A DNA stretch of 62,517 nucleotides, taken from assembly GCA_903873905.1 (NCBI GenBank), contig CAIQQJ010000138.1, positions 1-62,517 of the forward strand. The letters are read 5' to 3'. Positions 575-48,798 of the stretch are shown one piece after another. How positions within the stretch are numbered: position 1 is the stretch's first letter; every line of letters starts with the position of its first letter. The notes under the pieces were generated by a model. It made no database searches. It saw only the letters and a list, made by a program, of their open reading frames with translations, and was not told the DNA's origin. The position numbers and the translations under genes were made by a program. The stretch is from an uncultured Flavobacteriales bacterium (GTDB taxonomy: Bacteria; Bacteroidota; Bacteroidia; Palsa-965).

Positions 575-1567
575 TTAAAATTGTATCCAAAGATCGTGCT
601 CCGTTTCAATTAATTCAATTTCTATCTGTAATTGCATTTTGGCAAGTTTCTCTTGATAATGCAAATCATTCATTTCAAAATAATCTTTCAATTCCAAATC
701 CTTCACATTTGATTCCTTGTAAATCACACTGGGAAAACAATGGAAAAAAAATAAATCGTCGATTGTTTTTACATTCAGCGAACAATTGGAATATTCAACT
801 TTAATCGCATTCATGATATTTCTGATTTCAGGAAAATAAAACCAACAAACATCCACGGAATCCTTTTCATTAAAAGCAGATTGCATGACCGGACAAATTC
901 CAACAATTCTTTTTTCAGAAGTCCTACGCTTGCTATCAAAGAAAAAATCCTCCTTTATTTTATAGCCAATTATTTTTGTTCTCAAAGTATCTGAAAATCT
1001 AGTGATCTCATCTTTGCCAAGCTTTGTTCTGAATTCATCGTCTGCAGTACCGTATGCTTGTATTTTCCCTGAAACAACAGCATCCAATAATGCATTGAAA
1101 AAAATATCGTCCTTGAAAATTGGACTCGATTCAATTCTTGAAATAAATCGCCAGGTTCTTTTTAAATAAACAACATCTTTCTCAGTTATTCCTTCATAAG
1201 GATAAATACCAATCTCATTTCGCGTTAAGATTGGCTTTGGATCCTTTTCATTCTTATTTTCATTGGGAAAAATCTGCTTGAATTCATAACCATTCTTATA
1301 TTCTCGAACCACCAATAATTTTCCAGTAATCGAATCCCAAACTTTCCATTTACCATAACGCTGATTAGCAACAAAATTTCCTTCCGCTTTTTTGATTCCA
1401 TTTCGATAATAAGAAATGTAATAACCATCAAACATGCCATCCTTGGTTTCGTAATTCACCGTATACTTCCCATCGGAAAAACTATGGGAATTATTACCCG
1501 ATTTGCCCGACCAAAAAACAAACAAGGCAATCATTGCTCCAAGAAAAATAGTCCTTTTCATTTCCAT
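575..1567 (-). CDS. Secreted or anchored protein with YwqK/MORN-like repeats
   Basis: The 330-residue product starts with a hydrophobic segment (about residues 6-20; a second ATG two codons in gives the more usual MKRT start). Residues about 30-90 hold YwqK/MORN-type repeats of the form DG-x-YxxYYxNG-x-KxxEGxFxxxxxxGxWKxW. Such repeats are common in Bacteroidota secreted proteins; the family name 'toxin-antitoxin YwqK antitoxin' is not evidence of that function. The rest, about 100-330, is not recognised. It is convergent with the thioredoxin-like gene (21 bases apart) and faces away from the TPR gene. Function unknown. Confidence 0.7.
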   Translation of the reverse strand: MEMKRTIFLGAMIALFVFWSGKSGNNSHSFSDGKYTVNYETKDGMFDGYYISYYRNGIKKAEGNFVANQRYGKWKVWDSITGKLLVVREYKNGYEFKQIFPNENKNEKDPKPILTRNEIGIYPYEGITEKDVVYLKRTWRFISRIESSPIFKDDIFFNALLDAVVSGKIQAYGTADDEFRTKLGKDEITRFSDTLRTKIIGYKIKEDFFFDSKRRTSEKRIVGICPVMQSAFNEKDSVDVCWFYFPEIRNIMNAIKVEYSNCSLNVKTIDDLFFFHCFPSVIYKESNVKDLELKDYFEMNDLHYQEKLAKMQLQIEIELIETEHDLWIQF

Positions 1568-10281: not shown

Positions 10282-10323
10282 GCAAAAAAAAAACGATTAA
10301 GTCAATAGACCTAATCGTTTTCA
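10282..10323 (-). terminator. Intrinsic terminator of the cobalamin unit
   Basis: ACGATTA / TAATCGT form a stem around a 14-base loop. Read leftward it is followed by a run of ten T residues, immediately downstream of the BtuG-like gene. Confidence 0.85.
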
Positions 10324-10341: not shown

Positions 10342-11394
10342 CTAATAAAAATAAATTTCTCCAGGACAAATTCCTACCAGATCATCATCCAGCAAAATAC
10401 CAGCAAGGGAGTAACGATACAAACGCCCATTTGAAGTATAGTTAACTGCATCCGAAACAAAAACTTCTCCATTGGAAGGTCGGATTCCTATTGCATAAAA
10501 ACTCTGTGTGCTTGCAGTAATAAACGGTGTTGCTGGAAGTGAAATATTTGAAGATGCCATTTTATAAACGGAATAATTCAAATAATACAACGTGTCCTTT
10601 GCTGCATTAGCACAAAGTTTCGTTGCATAATCGGAAGTGGTAAGCGGCAATGATAATTCCACTGTATGATTAGTTGGATTGATTTTATACAATCCTCCTG
10701 GTGCACTTGTTGCATAATCGCCAAAACAAAGAACCCACAATTTTCCATTGTTGTCTACTTGCAGACTGTTTCCTCCTTTAGCTACAGGAATACTGTCGGT
10801 GACCAAATCAGTAGTTGGATTGACAACATACACAAAACCTTTATCCGTACTGGAAACAAAAACTTCAGAACCGATCATTACCATTGCTTCCGATTCACCT
10901 GGAAATGCAAATGATCCTGTGCGTGTGTCATTGGAAAGATTCACAATGCTTATTGCATTCGCATACAAATCGGACACATATGCTTTCGTTGAAGAAACGG
11001 GCAAAATAAATCGTGGGGAAGAAAACCCACTAATGGTATGTTGATGAGCAAATGTTGTTGTAGCAACTACTTCAATTTTTCCAGAATTATTTACTACGAT
11101 GTAAGTTTTTCCATTGTAAGTTGTAAGACTTTGACAAACATCTCCAAGTGGCACACTGTTCACTTGTGAAAATAAATCCTCAGTAGAATTTCCACTAGTG
11201 AAATTATAGAAACTCAATTTTGCATTTCCCGCTTGAAATGTGCCTTCATCAGTAATAAAAACACCGTCTCCTGGTTGAATATTCAATGCAGTTACTGAAG
11301 GTGTAGTTGGAGGTTCAACTTTGTCCTTTTTACAGGAAAATATTGAAAGGGAAAAGAGCAAGCCGATTGCAAGAATTTTTACTTGTAGGTTCAT
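10342..11394 (-). CDS. BtuG-like YncE/DUF5074 beta-propeller lipoprotein
   Basis: The 350-residue protein has a lipoprotein signal (hydrophobic stretch then SIFSC at about 17-21, followed by KKDK). The mature part is a YncE/DUF5074-type beta-propeller with repeated blades (YNGKTYIVVNNSGKIEVV, STKAYVSDLYANAISIVNL, GSEVFVSSTDKGFVYVV). In gut Bacteroides, such surface propeller lipoproteins (BtuG) bind cobalamin with very high affinity and cap the BtuB receptor. Here it directly follows a BtuB-like receptor behind a cobalamin riboswitch, which supports that role by context. DUF5074 proteins also occur elsewhere, so the ligand is inferred. Confidence 0.8.
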   Translation of the reverse strand: MNLQVKILAIGLLFSLSIFSCKKDKVEPPTTPSVTALNIQPGDGVFITDEGTFQAGNAKLSFYNFTSGNSTEDLFSQVNSVPLGDVCQSLTTYNGKTYIVVNNSGKIEVVATTTFAHQHTISGFSSPRFILPVSSTKAYVSDLYANAISIVNLSNDTRTGSFAFPGESEAMVMIGSEVFVSSTDKGFVYVVNPTTDLVTDSIPVAKGGNSLQVDNNGKLWVLCFGDYATSAPGGLYKINPTNHTVELSLPLTTSDYATKLCANAAKDTLYYLNYSVYKMASSNISLPATPFITASTQSFYAIGIRPSNGEVFVSDAVNYTSNGRLYRYSLAGILLDDDLVGICPGEIYFY

Positions 11395-11425
11395 GTTGGT
11401 CTGTTGTTTGTGGTTAGTAGTCTTT

Positions 11426-11474
11426 GTTTTGTAATTTGTGTTTTGCTATTTGTGTTTTGTGTTTTGCTATTTGA
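11426..11474. repeat. Seven-unit heptamer array, GTTTTGT/TATTTGT family
   Basis: Seven uninterrupted 7-bp units alternate between GTTTTGT or GTTTTGC and AATTTGT or TATTTGT. They fill the gap between the BtuB-like and BtuG-like genes and touch the stop of the former. Confidence 0.85.
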
Positions 11475-11476
11475 TT

Positions 11477-13429
11477 TTACACTTTAGATTTTTTCTTTTT
11501 ATTAAAATCAATGGTTATACCTACTTGAAAATTTCTGCCGGGCATTGGCCGCCAAACAATATTCTGATATTCCTTATTGTAAAGATTATTGACTCTAAAA
11601 AAAATATCTCCGAAAGAATTTTTAAAATCCACTCGCTTGCCGATTGTAAGTTGTGCCATATCATAGGCAGGCAAATAGGTGGAATGATCTGTTGTCGTAA
11701 AACGAAGTCCATTGAATTGATGGTTGTATGCGATATAATACTTCAAATAGGAAATCTGTAACAGGGTATAAAAATGATTGGTTGGGACATAAACCAATTG
11801 TTTCCCAATTGAAACATCGTTTGGAACTTTCGATTGTTCGGTTGTTGCACGCACATAATCGTATCCTCCAATAAAAGTCGATTCAAATTTATTTTTTATC
11901 CAATTTACCTTTCCGCGATGCTCGAATCCCCTACTCCACACTTCCTTTAAATTGCTCGGAGCCCAAATAGCGGAATTGGCTGAACTTGGCGACCACTGAA
12001 TCCAATTTTCAGTAATGCGGTAATAAGCGGTTACAGAATAATCGATGGTTACATTTTTATACTTGTATTTAAATACAACTGCAAAATCCTCATTCCAACT
12101 ATCTTCCGGTTTCAAATCCGAATTCCCTCCGGGTTGCCAATACAAATCATTGAATGTTGGAAGTCGGTAATTTCTGCTGAAGGAATTTTTTATGGTAATG
12201 AATTTAATCCCATAATATTCCGCACCGATGGAGCCAACCAGTGGTGTTATTTTCCCCTGCAATTCCTCTTCGCGCAAATTCAAAACCAGATTCCAATTCT
12301 CATTCGGCAAAAATTTCACTGCATCAAAAACACTTGCCCGATTTTGTTTGGTGATGGGCACATATTGTGTCACATCCGCCTTCGACCAAGTGTCATTCAC
12401 ACCAATTGTATTTGTGATTTTATTTGATATCCGAATTTTCCCATCCACTTCGTTCACAAGAGAAATGGAATGCGTGTAAGAATTAGGTTGATTGTATCCC
12501 TGATAGAAATCCATATACTCGGTAAGCACCGCTGATTTTATTTCAAGCTCAACTTTATTCAAATACAATTTCCAATTGCCCATGGTTCTGGAAAACTCAT
12601 CCTTCTGGCGCAAATCATTATTCACCTCCACCATCGAAGGAGGAATTCCACGATCGCTCGATTGATACCAAGAACGAATAACAAATAATTGCTTTTGCGA
12701 TTTTGTTGTCCACGCAACTTGTCCCATCATTCCTTGTTGGAAGAAATAGGAATTCTGCATGGTGTCAATTGGAAAACTATCTTTTGCTAAATTTCTATAA
12801 GTAAAATTATTTTCTGCAATCTGCCGATACATTCGTACATCAGCATAAAAACGAGAATTGCTAAACCCAATTTTTATTCCATGATTCTGTTCGCCAAAAC
12901 TGCCCGCTTGTCCAACATATTTTATTTTCCATCCTTCATTGGCAGAAAGCAAATTGTTGGTTTGAATCACTCCGCCAATTGCACCACTTCCCCAACCTGA
13001 GGAACCTCCACCATTTTGCAAAGAAACATTATCACAAATAATTGCAGGTACCAATGACAAATCCAGTCCACCATTTGTTGGGCTCTGTAAATTAATGCCA
13101 TTCCATAATAAAGGAGTTTGTGAAGCGGATGCCCCGCGAATGGTGGTGGTGGCCAAATTTCCACCGCCATAACTTTTCAGGAATGTAATTCCATTTTGTC
13201 CAAGCAAATCCGTTAATGTTCCCGCAGAATAACGACTTGATTGAATTGAATCGGTTTTTTCAATTGTCAATCCTGGATTTGCAATATCAGTCCGAAGGGA
13301 CGGAAGAATGTCAACGTTTGAAAGTGTTATTGTTTTTACAATTGTATCCTGCGCATACAAATGAAAAGTAGGCAGCAGCATTGCAACCAAAAAAAACAAA
13401 ACAACAAACGGATTACAATACCTTTTCAT
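11477..13429 (-). CDS. btuB: TonB-dependent receptor, BtuB-like cobalamin transporter
   Basis: The 650-residue outer-membrane receptor has a signal peptide (about 1-27, ending LYAQ). A plug domain covers about 35-165 (IEKTDS, LTDLLGQNGITFLKSYG, TIRGASASQTPLLWNGI, GAIGGVI). A 22-strand type barrel ends in GRNFQVGITIDF. The length matches BtuB (about 600-650) rather than the 1000-residue SusC type. Specificity is inferred from the cobalamin riboswitch at 13560-13726 and the BtuG-like lipoprotein gene downstream. TonB-ExbBD and the BtuFCD permease are not in the window. Confidence 0.88.
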   Translation of the reverse strand: MKRYCNPFVVLFFLVAMLLPTFHLYAQDTIVKTITLSNVDILPSLRTDIANPGLTIEKTDSIQSSRYSAGTLTDLLGQNGITFLKSYGGGNLATTTIRGASASQTPLLWNGINLQSPTNGGLDLSLVPAIICDNVSLQNGGGSSGWGSGAIGGVIQTNNLLSANEGWKIKYVGQAGSFGEQNHGIKIGFSNSRFYADVRMYRQIAENNFTYRNLAKDSFPIDTMQNSYFFQQGMMGQVAWTTKSQKQLFVIRSWYQSSDRGIPPSMVEVNNDLRQKDEFSRTMGNWKLYLNKVELEIKSAVLTEYMDFYQGYNQPNSYTHSISLVNEVDGKIRISNKITNTIGVNDTWSKADVTQYVPITKQNRASVFDAVKFLPNENWNLVLNLREEELQGKITPLVGSIGAEYYGIKFITIKNSFSRNYRLPTFNDLYWQPGGNSDLKPEDSWNEDFAVVFKYKYKNVTIDYSVTAYYRITENWIQWSPSSANSAIWAPSNLKEVWSRGFEHRGKVNWIKNKFESTFIGGYDYVRATTEQSKVPNDVSIGKQLVYVPTNHFYTLLQISYLKYYIAYNHQFNGLRFTTTDHSTYLPAYDMAQLTIGKRVDFKNSFGDIFFRVNNLYNKEYQNIVWRPMPGRNFQVGITIDFNKKKKSKV

Positions 13430-13509
13430 GACACAACGATCTTTTCCCGGATCAATGAAACATTCGTCATGAAACTTGGTTGGAAAACGCAGAAGGAAAT
13501 AGAAAAAAT

Positions 13510-13557
13510 CTATTCAAACCGCGCAGCTTCTTCCCGAGGCAACGGATGATCATTCAT
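13510..13557 (-). other. Possible 15-codon leader ORF after the riboswitch
   Basis: Immediately after the aptamer an ATG opens a 15-codon frame (MNDHPLPREEAARFE) closed by TAG, still about 80 bases before the btuB start. The stop overlaps a small AATAGA/TCTATT hairpin. It could be chance or a remnant. Confidence 0.2.
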
Positions 13558-13559
13558 AA

Positions 13560-13726
13560 CGGCAGGTCTTCTGACTTGTTCCCTCTCTGAAGCCTTCCCT
13601 TCCAAATGAAAGTGGCAATTTATAATCAGAGAGTAATTAAGAACTTACAGCAGCGGGAACTGTTCCTGAATTTCACAGGATTCCCTTTTCATCTCTTTCG
13701 TTAGTTTAACGATCAAGAACCGGTAC
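13560..13726 (-). promoter_or_regulatory. Cobalamin (B12) riboswitch
   Basis: Read leftward, the order of conserved cobalamin aptamer elements is present: an upstream CTTGAT-type segment, AAAAGGGAATCC, GTGAAATTC, AGGAACAGTTCCCGCTGCTG, then the 3' block AGTCAGAAGACCTGCC. The peripheral arm between them is long. It lies about 130 bases before the TonB receptor start and should reduce its expression when adenosylcobalamin or a related form is plentiful. The AATAGATTTTTTCTATT segment at 13500-13515 may belong to the expression platform. Confidence 0.95.
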
Positions 13727-13731
13727 AATAG

Positions 13732-13739
13732 TAAAGGTA
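13732..13739 (-). promoter_or_regulatory. Candidate -7 box of the cobalamin unit
   Basis: TACCTTTA (read leftward) is one base from TAnnTTTG and sits just upstream of the aptamer's 5' end, where a start site would be expected. No convincing TTG lies at the usual distance; a heptamer array starts 5 bases further up. Confidence 0.45.
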
Positions 13740-13743
13740 GGAA

Positions 13744-13771
13744 AAGGGATGAGGGACAAGGGACGAGGGAC
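13744..13771. repeat. Four-unit heptamer array, RAGGGAC family
   Basis: Units AAGGGAT, GAGGGAC, AAGGGAC and GAGGGAC run without gaps. The same family occurs in reverse orientation at 3519-3550. It lies directly upstream of the putative cobalamin promoter. Confidence 0.85.
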
Positions 13772-13868
13772 AATTATTTTTTTGAAACTCGATCTAAGTG
13801 TCTGAAAATGTTTTGATAAAAATTCAGAACTACTTTAACCGCACGACAAATGTCCCATGCAATTCATT

Positions 13869-43560: not shown

Positions 43561-46500
43561 TTAGTTTTTCTTTTTAATTCTAATTCCAATTACACAGATG
43601 TCATCCGTCTGCACATCATCATGCATCCAGTTTTTCAATTGCACTTCCAACATTCGTTTCTGAACAGACATTTCTTCAGCGTGAATGTTCATCAAGATTT
43701 CCTGAAATCTACGCTGCGATAATTTGCGATCATCTTCTCCTCCGAATTGATCTGAAAATCCATCCGTAAACAAATAAATAACATCGCCCTCCTGCAATTC
43801 CGTTTCCTGATTTGTAAACGGTCGCATTTTATTATCAAAATAGCTTCCTATTGAAAAGCGATTTCCTTTCGACTGAATAAGCATGTCATCGCGAATAATG
43901 TACATCGGATTAATAGCTCCAGCGAATTGCATTTTCATTGTTTCATGTTCGAAAACACAAAGTGAAATATCCATTCCATCACGTAACTCACCAATTGATT
44001 TATATTGATTGAGTGTATGTTGTATTCCCGCATTTAGATAATCCAAAATTGAAGACGGACGCACTAAATTACGTTCATGCACAGCCTGATTCAAAAGATT
44101 TTGTCCCATCAGACTCAATAAAGCACCAGGAACTCCATGTCCAGTTGAATCTACCACCGCAACAAAAGTATAGTTACCTCGTTTTTCAGCCCAATAGAAA
44201 TCACCGCTGAGAACATCTTTTGGTTTATATAAAACAAATAAATCTCCCATCTGATCACGCAACATTTCCTCAGGTGGAAGGATAGCATCTTGAATTCTTC
44301 TTGCGTATAAAATACTTGCAGAGATATCATTATTTTTCTGTTCAATGATCCCGCGATAATTCATTTGCTGTAAAGTATTTGCCATCGCATCGGCAACTTC
44401 TCTTATCATTTCAATATCCTCAAACGAAATTGCATTGGCTTTAGCAGATCCGATATTAATAGACCCTATTAATTCTCCGCGAGCGAACAGTGGCATTACG
44501 AGATAGGAACGAACACCAGCTTCCAGATTTTCCTTGTCCGACTCTGAGAGATCCATTTGGGCGGAAAGATCATTCACAAGGAAATGCGTATTCTGTCTTA
44601 GATTAGGAAGACTCCTAAAACTTTCTAAAGGCATAATTATTCTTCCAAGTTTTCCTTCCCCTTCTCTGAAAACAAAAAGCATTTCAAGAATTCCATCACG
44701 CTCATTGAAAAGCGCGAGTGAAGTACGCCTCAGATAAGTAATTCGTTCGGCGAGTCTTCCCAAAACATTGTGAGCAACTTCGTCTGGGGTTTCAGACCGC
44801 AACAATTCCTCTTTTGCCATGTTCAATGTTTCAAGGCGCGTGGAGTATTTGTCTAACTGAATTTCGTATCGTTTCTTTTCGGTAATGTCGTTGAAAATTT
44901 CAATCTGCCTAAGAATTTTTCCGTTTTCATCTACAATTGGAGTATTGGAAACAGCAATCCATATTTCATATCCTTGTTTATTGTAAACCAAAAATTCCCT
45001 ATGAAATCCTTCCGCATTTTTCGATTGCTCACGCACCAACGAAATTGCGCTAGCGTCCGTGCGATCACCAGCCAGAACATCTCCAGGTAATTTTCCAAGC
45101 ACATCATCAAGTGTGTAACCTGTGATTCGTGTAAAGCCTTCATTCACCCAGTCGATGCGTCCATTCGGATCACAAATGAGTACACCATTAATTGTTTCGC
45201 TTGCAACCAAAGAAAGTTTTTCCAATTCCTCCTCATAACGTTTCTTCTCCGTGATATCTCGCGCGATGGCTTGAAATCCGGTTACACGTGTAGGATGTGT
45301 TTCATCAAACAAAAGCCTAACCGTTTGACCAAGCCAAATGGTTTCACCAATGTTATTGAAAATTGGAAATTCAAAATAGGTATTAGTAGTTCTCTTTCTA
45401 AATTGTTTTGCATAAAACGTCCGAACCTCTTCCATGTAATCCGGTTTCACAACTTCAGTAAAGTGACGACCAATCAGATCTTCATTGGAATAACCCGTGA
45501 TTTTCGTTGTCACGGAATTGATATATGTGAATTTCCCCTTGTAATCCGCAGTGTAAATAATATCAATGGCAGCTTCCACAATATGTCTATACCGCTCCTC
45601 TATTTCTCGACGGTCAGTAATATCTAATCCAATTCCAACTTTAATTCCACCTTCAAGAACAGTATCCACCCATTGAATCCATTTGATCGTATTATTTTTT
45701 GTTTTTAAAGCAGTAACATAAACCGAAGTCGGCTCATTTGTATCATGAATTTGTTTTTTGATTTTTTCATTTTCTTCCGGATCATCTGTTCTGATTTTCC
45801 ACCAACCATCACCCAACACTTCTTCCTCCGTATATCCTAGAATTGAACGAATACTTCGGCTTGCGAAAATTATTTTCCCATTTTCATCAGCAGCAATAAC
45901 CAGACTTCGTGTATTATTTATTGTGGTATCAGCGAAAACAAGTCGGTTCAATAAATTTAATCTGGAAAGCACCAATATGAACGTTATAACCAGACAAACG
46001 ATAACGTTGAATAAAAATATCCATCGGTTATAGAGTGCTTCATTTCCTGTCGCGAACATTAATAATCCAACTGTAATCAAAAGGACACAGGTGAAAATTG
46101 TTGTTGTTCGAATATTATCCAATACAATACCAGCAGCTCCCAATGCGGCAGCAAGCATCACCACGGTCACTGGATGAAGATGATTCAGGTGATTCAAATA
46201 AAGAATATGGATTATTAACAGACTTAATCCCAATTGTGAAAGCCATCCAACATATTTTCTTGCAAAAGGATTATAAAACGTAGCTATTCCAGAGCCTAAA
46301 AGCAGCACTCCGATTGAAACCTGAATCGCTTCCTGCATTATCATTTTTAAATCAAATACATGACATAAATATCCAGATGTAGGATATAATATTCCGGCGC
46401 AGATCAAAAACATTCTTCCCGCATTCAAAACATAATCAGCGAATGATCGGTGTCGGCGGACAAAATCTGTTCTGAAACGTTGGTACAAAAAGATGAGAAG

Positions 46501-48798
46501 GATTCCAATTGAAGATAAAAATCCCATTACCAACAGGAAAAACCACCATGTTCCCCAGAATGGAGGAGAAATTGTAAAAGCGAAAATATAAGGTGCGCTA
46601 AAAACATTGCTGCTGTTTCCAGCACGCACTTGAAAGCGATAATCACCAGGAGGAAGATTGGAATAACTGACGGAATTTCCATCTGGTAATTGGATCCAAT
46701 CTTTTTCGAATCCTTCCAACATATATTCGTAGCGAACATTTACTCCAGCACCAAATTGAATTCCTGAAAGATGAAAAGTGATTTGATTTTTATCATAAGG
46801 AAGGTTTGGTTGAAATGGCAATCCATTTCTCAAAAGACTATCAGAATATTCCTCCCAATTTGTTTCTTGGTTGAATAATAAAGCAGACTTTATTTCAATA
46901 TGCGGGCTTGTTATTTTATTCCGCTCATTCGCAGAAGAATAAATAATAACACCATCTGTGGAACCTAACCACAATCGCCCATCCTTACTGTAAAAAATTA
47001 CACCTTCATTAAAATTATCCGTTCCAATTCCCTCACTATATAAAAAATGTCGCACTTGATGGGTGTCCGGATTGAAAACAATTCTATCCATTCCCACCAT
47101 GGTAGTAACATACATTGAACGCTCATCAATTCTCAAAATCCCATTGGTAAAATCACTACTTAAACCTTGTGACTTATCAAGGCGCTGAAATTTTTGAGCC
47201 TTCCTATTATATCTCCAAATTCCATTACGCTGAGATGCAAAATAGATATAGGTTTTATCTCCTTGAATTCCATAAACAGGTAGTGATGGTTGATTTTTAC
47301 CTGTGCAAATTGGTTTTACTGCATTACCATTTTCCATGTAATACATTCCTCTTCCAGTTCCAATCCATATAACCCCATCTTCCGATTCAAACAATGACCA
47401 GATTGGATTTCGTAATAAAGTATTTCCAGTATTTATGGATTCGATTTTTTCATTTGCAATACGAAACAACCCATTCGAAACAGTACCAATCCAAACAGAA
47501 CCGTCTTTGGTATATAACATGCTTATTATTTCACCAAGCTCAATTCCTTTTGGCGGATGCACTATTTTAACTTTTCCGTTTGAAATAATATTAACATCAC
47601 CATTTAAAGTTCCAGCAAAAATATTTTTCCCATCAGTAACCAGCGCACCAATGCGATTAAAACTCAATCCGTTTTTTTCATTCCAAAACTGAATGTCAAT
47701 TCCATCGTATTTTACAATTCCAGCAAGTGTCGCAAACCACATATTCCCATCATCATCTTCTGTAATTGCGCGAACATTATTGTCAGGCAATCCATCCTTA
47801 ACGGTTAAGGAAGTAAACTGGTCTCCATAGAAAAAAACCAATCCTGATGAATAAGTTCCAATCCAAGTATTTCCTTGATGATCAGAACTAACACACGTCA
47901 CCACATCATCACCCAAGCCATTTGCTCCACTGTATGCCTTGAAAACAGATTTTGTATAACGGATAACGCCACTTCCCCAAGTACCTAACCAAATATCACC
48001 ATAAGCATCTTTTTGAAGACAAGTAAAATATTTAGTGTTTAATTTTTCGGGAAGCTGAATTGTATTGAGCGCTTGACCATCGTAGGAAAGCAATCCCTGA
48101 TCGGAAGTGGCAATCCACAGTTCGCCTTGTTCACCCTCAACAATTCCACGAATATGAGCACTAACAATTTTATCCTGTTCTGGAAAAACTACATTCGAAT
48201 AACGACCATTTTCATAGTTCAGTTCAAATAATCCGTTACTCTCCGTTCCAATCCAAAGATTATTTCGAACATCGTGATAGCCTGTTCGTACAGGAAGGTC
48301 ATCAAGGGGTGTTCCTGTGTTAAGATGATAATATTTCCCATCTTCAAATCGAAACAATCCTTTATCAGTTGCCATCAAATTTTCATTGGCAAGTCCAGTA
48401 AAAAAAGTATAAATACGAGAGAAATCTTTTCCAGATTCGGATTTGTAGAATTTAAATTTGCCTTGAAAATAAACTGCTACTCCGCTATCAGTAGCGAGTA
48501 AAATTCCGTGAGAGGTTTCAGTAATAGCAGTTACTTCATTGCCTCGTAAACCGTTTGAAGCATCATAAGTTTCAAATTCTTGTCCATCAAATCGTGATGC
48601 ACCCGCTTCCGTTCCAATCCAGATAAATCCCGCAGCATCCTGAAAAACACAATTGATATGAGCTTGAGGCAATCCATTTTTAACGGAATATTTTAGGAAA
48701 TTATATTGCTGCGCACGAAGAGATTCTGTGCCAACAAAAAATGTCAGAACAAGAAAAACATGAATTAAAAATCTTCTAGCGATGAAGTTGACCTTCAT
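43561..48798 (-). CDS. Giant propeller - Y_Y_Y - PAS - GAF - SpoIIE phosphatase sensor
   Basis: The 1745-residue product has a signal peptide (1-30) and two-component-regulator propeller repeats (about 35-625, many [IL]W[IL]GT boxes). A Y_Y_Y domain (about 675-745) and a TM helix (750-772) follow, as in hybrid two-component systems. It then diverges: five or so further TM helices (about 790-945), three PAS domains (about 958-1065, 1068-1185, 1190-1305), a GAF domain (about 1325-1475), and a SpoIIE/PP2C phosphatase (about 1510-1742) with SGDFYW (Asp1532), VVDSTGHGVPGA (Asp1550), TDGFSD (Asp1679). No histidine kinase or response-regulator domain is present. It probably senses an outside ligand and dephosphorylates a Ser/Thr-phosphorylated regulator, such as an anti-sigma antagonist; none is encoded nearby. 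Confidence 0.93.
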   Translation of the reverse strand: MKVNFIARRFLIHVFLVLTFFVGTESLRAQQYNFLKYSVKNGLPQAHINCVFQDAAGFIWIGTEAGASRFDGQEFETYDASNGLRGNEVTAITETSHGILLATDSGVAVYFQGKFKFYKSESGKDFSRIYTFFTGLANENLMATDKGLFRFEDGKYYHLNTGTPLDDLPVRTGYHDVRNNLWIGTESNGLFELNYENGRYSNVVFPEQDKIVSAHIRGIVEGEQGELWIATSDQGLLSYDGQALNTIQLPEKLNTKYFTCLQKDAYGDIWLGTWGSGVIRYTKSVFKAYSGANGLGDDVVTCVSSDHQGNTWIGTYSSGLVFFYGDQFTSLTVKDGLPDNNVRAITEDDDGNMWFATLAGIVKYDGIDIQFWNEKNGLSFNRIGALVTDGKNIFAGTLNGDVNIISNGKVKIVHPPKGIELGEIISMLYTKDGSVWIGTVSNGLFRIANEKIESINTGNTLLRNPIWSLFESEDGVIWIGTGRGMYYMENGNAVKPICTGKNQPSLPVYGIQGDKTYIYFASQRNGIWRYNRKAQKFQRLDKSQGLSSDFTNGILRIDERSMYVTTMVGMDRIVFNPDTHQVRHFLYSEGIGTDNFNEGVIFYSKDGRLWLGSTDGVIIYSSANERNKITSPHIEIKSALLFNQETNWEEYSDSLLRNGLPFQPNLPYDKNQITFHLSGIQFGAGVNVRYEYMLEGFEKDWIQLPDGNSVSYSNLPPGDYRFQVRAGNSSNVFSAPYIFAFTISPPFWGTWWFFLLVMGFLSSIGILLIFLYQRFRTDFVRRHRSFADYVLNAGRMFLICAGILYPTSGYLCHVFDLKMIMQEAIQVSIGVLLLGSGIATFYNPFARKYVGWLSQLGLSLLIIHILYLNHLNHLHPVTVVMLAAALGAAGIVLDNIRTTTIFTCVLLITVGLLMFATGNEALYNRWIFLFNVIVCLVITFILVLSRLNLLNRLVFADTTINNTRSLVIAADENGKIIFASRSIRSILGYTEEEVLGDGWWKIRTDDPEENEKIKKQIHDTNEPTSVYVTALKTKNNTIKWIQWVDTVLEGGIKVGIGLDITDRREIEERYRHIVEAAIDIIYTADYKGKFTYINSVTTKITGYSNEDLIGRHFTEVVKPDYMEEVRTFYAKQFRKRTTNTYFEFPIFNNIGETIWLGQTVRLLFDETHPTRVTGFQAIARDITEKKRYEEELEKLSLVASETINGVLICDPNGRIDWVNEGFTRITGYTLDDVLGKLPGDVLAGDRTDASAISLVREQSKNAEGFHREFLVYNKQGYEIWIAVSNTPIVDENGKILRQIEIFNDITEKKRYEIQLDKYSTRLETLNMAKEELLRSETPDEVAHNVLGRLAERITYLRRTSLALFNERDGILEMLFVFREGEGKLGRIIMPLESFRSLPNLRQNTHFLVNDLSAQMDLSESDKENLEAGVRSYLVMPLFARGELIGSINIGSAKANAISFEDIEMIREVADAMANTLQQMNYRGIIEQKNNDISASILYARRIQDAILPPEEMLRDQMGDLFVLYKPKDVLSGDFYWAEKRGNYTFVAVVDSTGHGVPGALLSLMGQNLLNQAVHERNLVRPSSILDYLNAGIQHTLNQYKSIGELRDGMDISLCVFEHETMKMQFAGAINPMYIIRDDMLIQSKGNRFSIGSYFDNKMRPFTNQETELQEGDVIYLFTDGFSDQFGGEDDRKLSQRRFQEILMNIHAEEMSVQKRMLEVQLKNWMHDDVQTDDICVIGIRIKKKN

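Follow-up and report, generated by a model that had tools for sequence, protein, structure and literature searches.

The riboswitch, receptor and lipoprotein genes

The stretch of DNA analysed here comprises 62,517 nucleotides (nt) of contig CAIQQJ010000138.1 from an uncultured Flavobacteriales bacterium (assembly GCA_903873905.1) and will be referred to as the window. It carries a cobalamin riboswitch, a gene for a BtuB-type TonB-dependent vitamin B12 receptor, a gene for a BtuG-type propeller lipoprotein and an intrinsic terminator, all on the minus strand and in this order (Table 1). The gaps measure 114 nt between riboswitch and BtuB, 82 nt between BtuB and BtuG, and 19 nt between the BtuG stop codon and the terminator stem. 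With a probability of roughly 0.88, we read this arrangement as an operon of two genes that serves the uptake of vitamin B12 (cobamide) through a TonB-dependent transporter assisted by a lid. The original prediction had proposed a compact capture unit of this composition preceded by a promoter-like box. Its identity as a riboswitch-linked BtuB-BtuG pair is supported alike by sequence and fold prediction, by the residues of the pocket, by loop EL8 of the receptor and by gene neighbourhood. The unit is indeed compact: it has the minimal two-gene form, and a single riboswitch, a single BtuB and a single BtuG were found in the genome.

The riboswitch matched RF00174 in the Rfam scan over the full length of the model and well above the gathering threshold (101.6 compared to 31.5 bits, E = 2.8e-24). 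It is the sole Rfam match in the window and the sole such riboswitch found in the genome. The leader stretch 13560-13430 folded no better than its shuffled versions (z = -0.07) and no stable terminator was seen there; as it folds like its shuffles, no terminator-type switch is claimed. At the other end of the operon, the strong terminator proposed earlier was found as a 15-pair stem followed by U's. The surrounding 61-nt stretch has a folding energy of -22.1 kcal/mol (z = -7.0), and none of 200 shuffled sequences was equally stable. Terminator-like sites are about as numerous in the region as chance predicts (3 versus 2.9 expected), and it is the stem length that stands out. The promoter-like box, in contrast, is not supported. 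No sigma-70-like site was detected on the minus strand from the riboswitch to 13900, the end of the scan, and the Bacteroidota-type -33/-7 pattern gave no exact match in the window compared to 3.2 expected by chance. Three TANNTTTG octamers with a single mismatch within 161 nt upstream of the riboswitch were equally unconvincing. Directly upstream of the riboswitch (13740-13775, minus strand), a short unit was noticed by eye in two near-identical copies, TTGTCCCTCGTCCC and TTGTCCCTCATCCC.

The first gene encodes a receptor of the predicted BtuB size with a Plug domain (Pfam). Its best relatives in the PDB are BtuB2 and BtuB3, with BtuB2 at the top (8bmx_C, E = 4.7e-55). The predicted model, with a mean predicted local distance difference test (pLDDT) value of 84.9, yielded a structural Z of 42.0 to BtuB2 (8bmx_C) and of up to 39.7 to BtuB of the E. 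coli type.

The second gene fits the propeller lipoprotein of the original prediction. Its product was assigned to the Pfam family DUF5074 (81.2 bits, cut-off 27.2), and BtuG3 and BtuG2 of Bacteroides thetaiotaomicron are its best PDB relatives (E = 2.4e-52 to 6e-52). The predicted model (pLDDT 91.4) superimposes on adenosylcobalamin-bound BtuG2 (8bmz) with Z = 46.1 and a root mean square deviation of 1.4 Å over 316 residues at 34% identity. Since propeller lipoproteins are generally known to be common, and several of the matched PDB chains are named surface layer proteins, the DUF5074 protein might be regarded as an unrelated surface-layer protein of the propeller type whose co-transcription is coincidental. 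This explanation is extremely improbable: eleven BtuG rows of the fold search reached a Z of at least 36.4, whereas none of the listed non-BtuG rows exceeded the 32.5 of the best non-BtuG propeller, BtuK1 reached 30.7, and the pairing with BtuB and the riboswitch recurs in relatives.

A lipobox-like SIFSC, recognized by eye, ends at Cys21, which is invariant in 21 aligned BtuGs; the KKDKVE that comes after it resembles an export signal, judged by eye only. The further invariant residues (E50, G51, N79, G84, N102, N103 and P127) are all located in the N-terminal third. For the binding pocket, the BtuG2 residues named in the text of PMC10404256 were mapped via an alignment to full-length BtuG2. 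Tyr239, Tyr316 and Tyr335 of BtuG2 correspond to Tyr227, Tyr300 and Tyr319 and Trp272 to Tyr256, and an aromatic residue is kept at four of the five named positions. The gripping loop Asn54-Thr64 in blade 1 of BtuG2 retains 6 of its 11 residues. BtuG2 forms 13 hydrogen bonds to B12, placed on blades 1-4, and the bonding residues are described as conserved (PMC10404256).

Table 1: Features of the riboswitch-BtuB-BtuG locus in window coordinates, in the direction of transcription.
Feature	Position	Strand	Basis
Cobalamin riboswitch aptamer	13544..13739	-	RF00174, 101.6 bits, full model 1-189
Leader from aptamer to BtuB start (114 nt), presumed expression platform	13430..13543	-	
BtuB-type TonB-dependent B12 receptor, 650 amino acids	11477..13429	-	Open reading frame, Plug domain, PDB matches, model
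EL8 motif WIQWSPSSANSAIWA, BtuB residues 476-490	11960..12004	-	Alignment; Trp489 in the column of BtuB3 Tyr538
BtuG-type propeller lipoprotein, presumably at the cell surface, 350 amino acids	10342..11394	-	Open reading frame, DUF5074, PDB matches, model
BtuG signal peptide, lipobox-like SIFSC with Cys21, export-signal-like CKKDKVEPP	11308..11394	-	By eye; invariance of Cys21
Intrinsic terminator	10289..10322	-	Stem and U tract, folding energy

DUF5074 was matched once more in the window, by a stretch (47440-47661) within an open reading frame of 1745 amino acids (43561-48798, minus strand). It scored 22.9 bits, or 27.6 with its neighbours, at a cut-off of 27.2 and was not accepted as a BtuG by size and score.

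The pair and its EL8 loop in related genomes

The distribution of the pair was analysed in a sample of 39 genomes, consisting of the window's own and 38 relatives, in which E below 1e-20 was taken as a strong BtuB match. BtuG was detected in 21 and a strong BtuB match in 20 genomes; 19 contain both, two BtuG only (G012 and G028), one BtuB only (G001) and 17 neither (Fisher p = 6e-8, relatedness not corrected). The G001 assembly is 72% complete, and its missing BtuG may therefore be a gap. In 16 of the relatives' 20 BtuG loci, BtuB precedes BtuG in the same orientation, and 17 of the 20 contain a cobalamin riboswitch.

A scan of named genomes gave a similar range of layouts among the best 80 loci of at least 585 stretches, 542 of them relatives. 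BtuB directly precedes BtuG as in the window in 25 loci, with one intervening gene in 19 and with more than one gene or a wide gap in 26; one locus has another order, and nine lack a BtuB match, some of them cut by contig ends. Riboswitches were searched for in 50 of these 80 loci, including 20 of the 25 that share the direct BtuB-BtuG order of the window, and at least one cobalamin riboswitch was found in every genome searched (50/50). It lies 0-600 nt before BtuB in 34 cases and on the same strand within about 2.6 kb in a further 14, assuming the same contig, and two do not fit. The closest BtuG among the matches listed, which may not include records very near the window, comes from the Flavobacteriales metagenome-assembled genome Baikal-G3 (62% identity). 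Some of the best 80 loci are titled after lakes (Baikal, Pavin, Alinen) or groundwater, most titles tell no habitat, and "non-gut" is thus a reading of some genome names. In the wider phylum, DUF5074 was found at E 1e-10 in 72 of 296 genomes, the window's own included. These are not BtuG counts, as the family is wider and the five matches with the highest scores belong to frames of 641-762 amino acids.

BtuG has been described as found only in Bacteroidetes and beside BtuB, based on 313 gut strains (PMC6143338), and btuG as universal in gut Bacteroidetes loci (PMC8941943); the lid mechanism, the role of EL8 and the idea of an advantage in the gut were put forward in PMC10404256. No paper on BtuG in free-living Bacteroidota was found among the matches listed in the open-access literature. 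According to the original prediction, finding the same pair in a lineage without other gut markers here would extend the gut mechanism. The same pair is present, but the novelty is small, as BtuG is frequent in relatives and the family is already Bacteroidetes-wide. The riboswitch-BtuB-BtuG unit is well supported here but largely expected.

The EL8 tip is required for growth on B12, and Tyr538 within EL8 is the one BtuB3 residue reported to touch the vitamin (PMC10404256). The corresponding column contains Phe in BtuB2, Trp in BtuB1 and Trp489 in the window BtuB. Of the EL8 positions given for BtuB3, this column is the only one entering the comparison; the EL8-tip segment Ser524-Leu531 of BtuB3 given in the same paper was not used because position 524 in the printed chain count is not Ser. 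In an alignment of the window BtuB with 14 paired relatives (from 16 loci; L028, which is split in two frames, and L032 were left out), all 15 proteins retain the second Trp of the motif WIxWxP as well as its Pro, and the contact column holds Trp in 14 and Tyr in one. The motif is missing from ten alternative receptors (G003, G005, G007, G008, G011, G017, G026, G029, G009 and G025) and kept in three BtuBs with other neighbours (G001, G013 and G037); G013 and G037 contain BtuG elsewhere. These findings, from few genomes and a distant alignment, support the view that EL8 may serve as a mark of lid-linked BtuBs.

Most of the alternative receptors stand behind the same type of riboswitch. Fourteen of the 18 genomes without a BtuG match contain a cobalamin riboswitch, which in nine of the 18 stands before a different receptor lacking the EL8 motif. 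In eight genomes (G003, G005, G007, G008, G011, G017, G026 and G029) the gene after the riboswitch encodes a TonB-dependent receptor of 720-781 amino acids with weak similarity to the window BtuB (loci L086, L087, L088, L089, L090, L091, L092 and L093), and in G025 a receptor of 633 amino acids comes next. G003 and G005 belong to the window's own genus. A receptor of the 720-781-residue kind is present in G009 without a detected riboswitch, and in G001 the riboswitch is followed by BtuB and then by a DUF4465 protein. In four further genomes (G018, G030, G034 and G035) a protein of 417-439 amino acids is encoded directly after the riboswitch, and the three tested carry a tail for the type IX secretion system (T9SS). 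Possibly these proteins are binders of the propeller type that are secreted rather than lipid-anchored; one of them gave no more than weak BtuG matches in the PDB (E 0.12 and worse). A BtuG-like NEG motif was noted near their start (L098 in G018, L095 in G030, L096 in G034 and L097 in G035).

Many BtuG loci of the relatives contain additional genes. Matches to DUF4465 (BtuJ-type) proteins carrying a T9SS tail occurred in 45 of the best 80 loci (family checked on a few), and neither the window nor its genome gave a match. DUF4465 proteins, including soil and vent members, have been reported to bind B12 (PMC13398666, PMC12751083). A second conserved T9SS-tailed family has matches in 38 of the 80 loci and is absent from the window. 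Its members have about 330 amino acids and the core FAVFENSF...LELAFVEVSSDG and occur beside BtuG and often BtuJ-like genes (L106:5000-5983, L109:4986-5975, L113:4976-5968 and similar); in L108 and L182 the family is fused to DUF4465. The core matched no Pfam family over cut-off and no PDB entry, and only the sorting tail was recognized. In the window, a GldN gene (Pfam; 575-1567, minus strand) points to type IX secretion or gliding machinery in the lineage. Between BtuB and BtuG, L182:3784-5988 contains genes resembling CobT, CobS and a phosphatase of the CobC type, as read from the sequence, and a gene of 99 amino acids lies at this position in L119 (2395-2694; Thiamine_BP family) and L126 (5666-5965), with a similar-sized one in L140.

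Evidence weighed for and against lid-assisted uptake

Several findings speak against lid-assisted B12 uptake by the pair. The window BtuB scored 71.2 bits with the NCBIfam model TIGR01779 (TonB-B12), far below the cut-off of 599.7, compared to 207 and 193 bits for the alternative receptors of G011 and G005. As the cut-off was missed, the protein was placed with the Bacteroides BtuB group by its nearest solved relatives. In the relatives, no BtuB lies beside BtuG in 4 of the 20 loci, and 3 of the 20 have no riboswitch. In BtuG2, Trp194 is among the three residues that narrow the cavity for the upper ligand; the window BtuG has Thr183 in its place. The mature protein has a counted net charge of -9 (28 acidic and 19 basic residues) compared to the -18e stated for BtuG2, and the electrostatic pull should therefore be weaker. 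Finally, searching the genome at E 1e-3 returned no FecCD-type permease, the usual inner-membrane partner, whereas the same search was positive in 13 of 14 control genomes; with FecCD missing from the matches, the operon was not assigned to a complete BtuBFCD uptake system.

The loci without an adjoining BtuB bear on the alternative that BtuG is a stand-alone surface B12 binder and that BtuB operates without forming a complex with a lid, as the lone receptor of E. coli does. Two of the 20 (L031 and L034) have their BtuB elsewhere in the genome, the genomes of another two (L042 and L046) yielded no strong BtuB match, and the fold of the window BtuB is also close to that of E. coli BtuB. Nevertheless, we consider this alternative unlikely, as the one BtuB and the one BtuG of the window's genome adjoin, and all aligned paired BtuBs retain the Pro of the EL8 motif and its second Trp, in a loop whose known role is together with the lid (PMC10404256).

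The pocket leaves room for a further alternative. Looking for conserved cobalamin contacts, as proposed with the original prediction, mostly spoke against its refuting case of a propeller without the BtuG pocket: part of the blade-1 loop and four of the five named aromatics are kept, but Trp194 is lost. Together with the change from Trp272 to Tyr256 this alters the upper-ligand cavity, and the pair might have drifted to another ligand, such as an unusual cobamide or another metal tetrapyrrole, while the cobalamin riboswitch was kept. Such a drift is even less probable than a stand-alone binder, given that the riboswitch is of the cobalamin family and that the invariant BtuG residues lie in the N-terminal third, with the B12 hydrogen bonds of BtuG2 on blades 1-4 (PMC10404256).

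Concerning the use of the vitamin, the genome contains four B12-binding-domain matches, and two of the genes were read from their sequence as methionine synthase and a fused mutase-like protein. For the inner-membrane step, a DUF6580-like membrane protein of the genome (G000:C103, L189:1438-1962; 38% identity to the DUF6580 query) is only a candidate B12 transporter. DUF6580-like genes were present in 6 of 19 fetched stretches and are rare beside BtuG (0/20 and 3/80 BtuG stretches). In BtuG-less relatives such a protein was noted near B12 receptor genes (L086, L088, L090, L096, L097 and L101). No mention of DUF6580 was found in the open-access literature searched.

A broader reading is put forward tentatively and is in our view rather doubtful. 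BtuB with its BtuG lid might represent an old Bacteroidota-wide B12 capture device that was not born of gut life and that, within a genus, can be replaced by a lone receptor controlled by a riboswitch of the same kind, and vice versa. Lid-needing BtuBs would then be marked by the EL8 motif (WIxWxP...WxPxN), and in the present lineage the device would feed a non-BtuCD importer, possibly the DUF6580 membrane protein. We keep the likelihood of this reading low because few BtuG loci have DUF6580 nearby and the DUF5074 family extends beyond BtuG.

Proposed mechanism and comparison with known systems

Under lid-assisted uptake, the preferred reading, the riboswitch would permit expression when cobamide is scarce, whereas with plentiful cobamide the RNA would shut expression off, a direction presumed from the riboswitch family. 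BtuG would reach the cell surface by export, be held there by its lipid anchor and sit on BtuB as a hinged lid, with one face of the propeller capturing the corrin ring. On closing of the lid, EL8 with Trp489 might push the vitamin from BtuG into BtuB, and energy delivered by TonB would pull B12 into the periplasm, for enzymes such as the methionine synthase of the genome.

The fresher points of the analysis are the minimal layout, in which no BtuJ-type helper and no FecCD were found, and the alternative receptor in BtuG-less genomes. The unit also occurs in relatives, several of which bear lake or groundwater names, and this points to surface-lid B12 scavenging as a more widespread property of these bacteria. 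For biochemical work, the two-gene form could serve as a minimal system. The alternative receptor in BtuG-less species of the same genus provides a natural comparison of uptake with and without a lid, with EL8 as sequence signature.

Among the known systems, SusC-SusD likewise combines a TonB-dependent channel with a lipoprotein lid, as expressed in the pedal-bin comparison (PMC10404256). It differs in lid and substrate, and the window receptor is BtuB-sized (no dedicated SusC-SusD search was made). The BtuJ/DUF4465 binding proteins (PMC12751083, PMC13398666) have similar genes in many of the relatives' BtuG loci but none in the window or its genome. E. coli BtuB (1nqe, 1nqh) has the fold of a TonB-dependent cobalamin receptor in common with the window BtuB (Z 39.4 to 1nqe and 37.9 to 1nqh) but shares only 15-16% identity, and E. 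coli is described as being without any BtuG (PMC6143338). The nearest counterparts are BtuB2-BtuG2 and BtuB3-BtuG3 of B. thetaiotaomicron (8bmx, 8p97, 8p98; PMC10404256). Compared to these, the window proteins show 34-36% identity for BtuG and 25-26% for BtuB, Trp194 is lost and the counted negative charge is smaller. Furthermore, B. thetaiotaomicron has three loci, whereas the window operon has only two genes and represents the one riboswitch, BtuB and BtuG found in its genome. Nevertheless, the gene families adjoin in the same manner, the btu loci of B. thetaiotaomicron are likewise under riboswitches (PMC12751083), and the two systems are alike in their folds, most of the named pocket aromatics, the EL8 aromatic and the lipoprotein signal.

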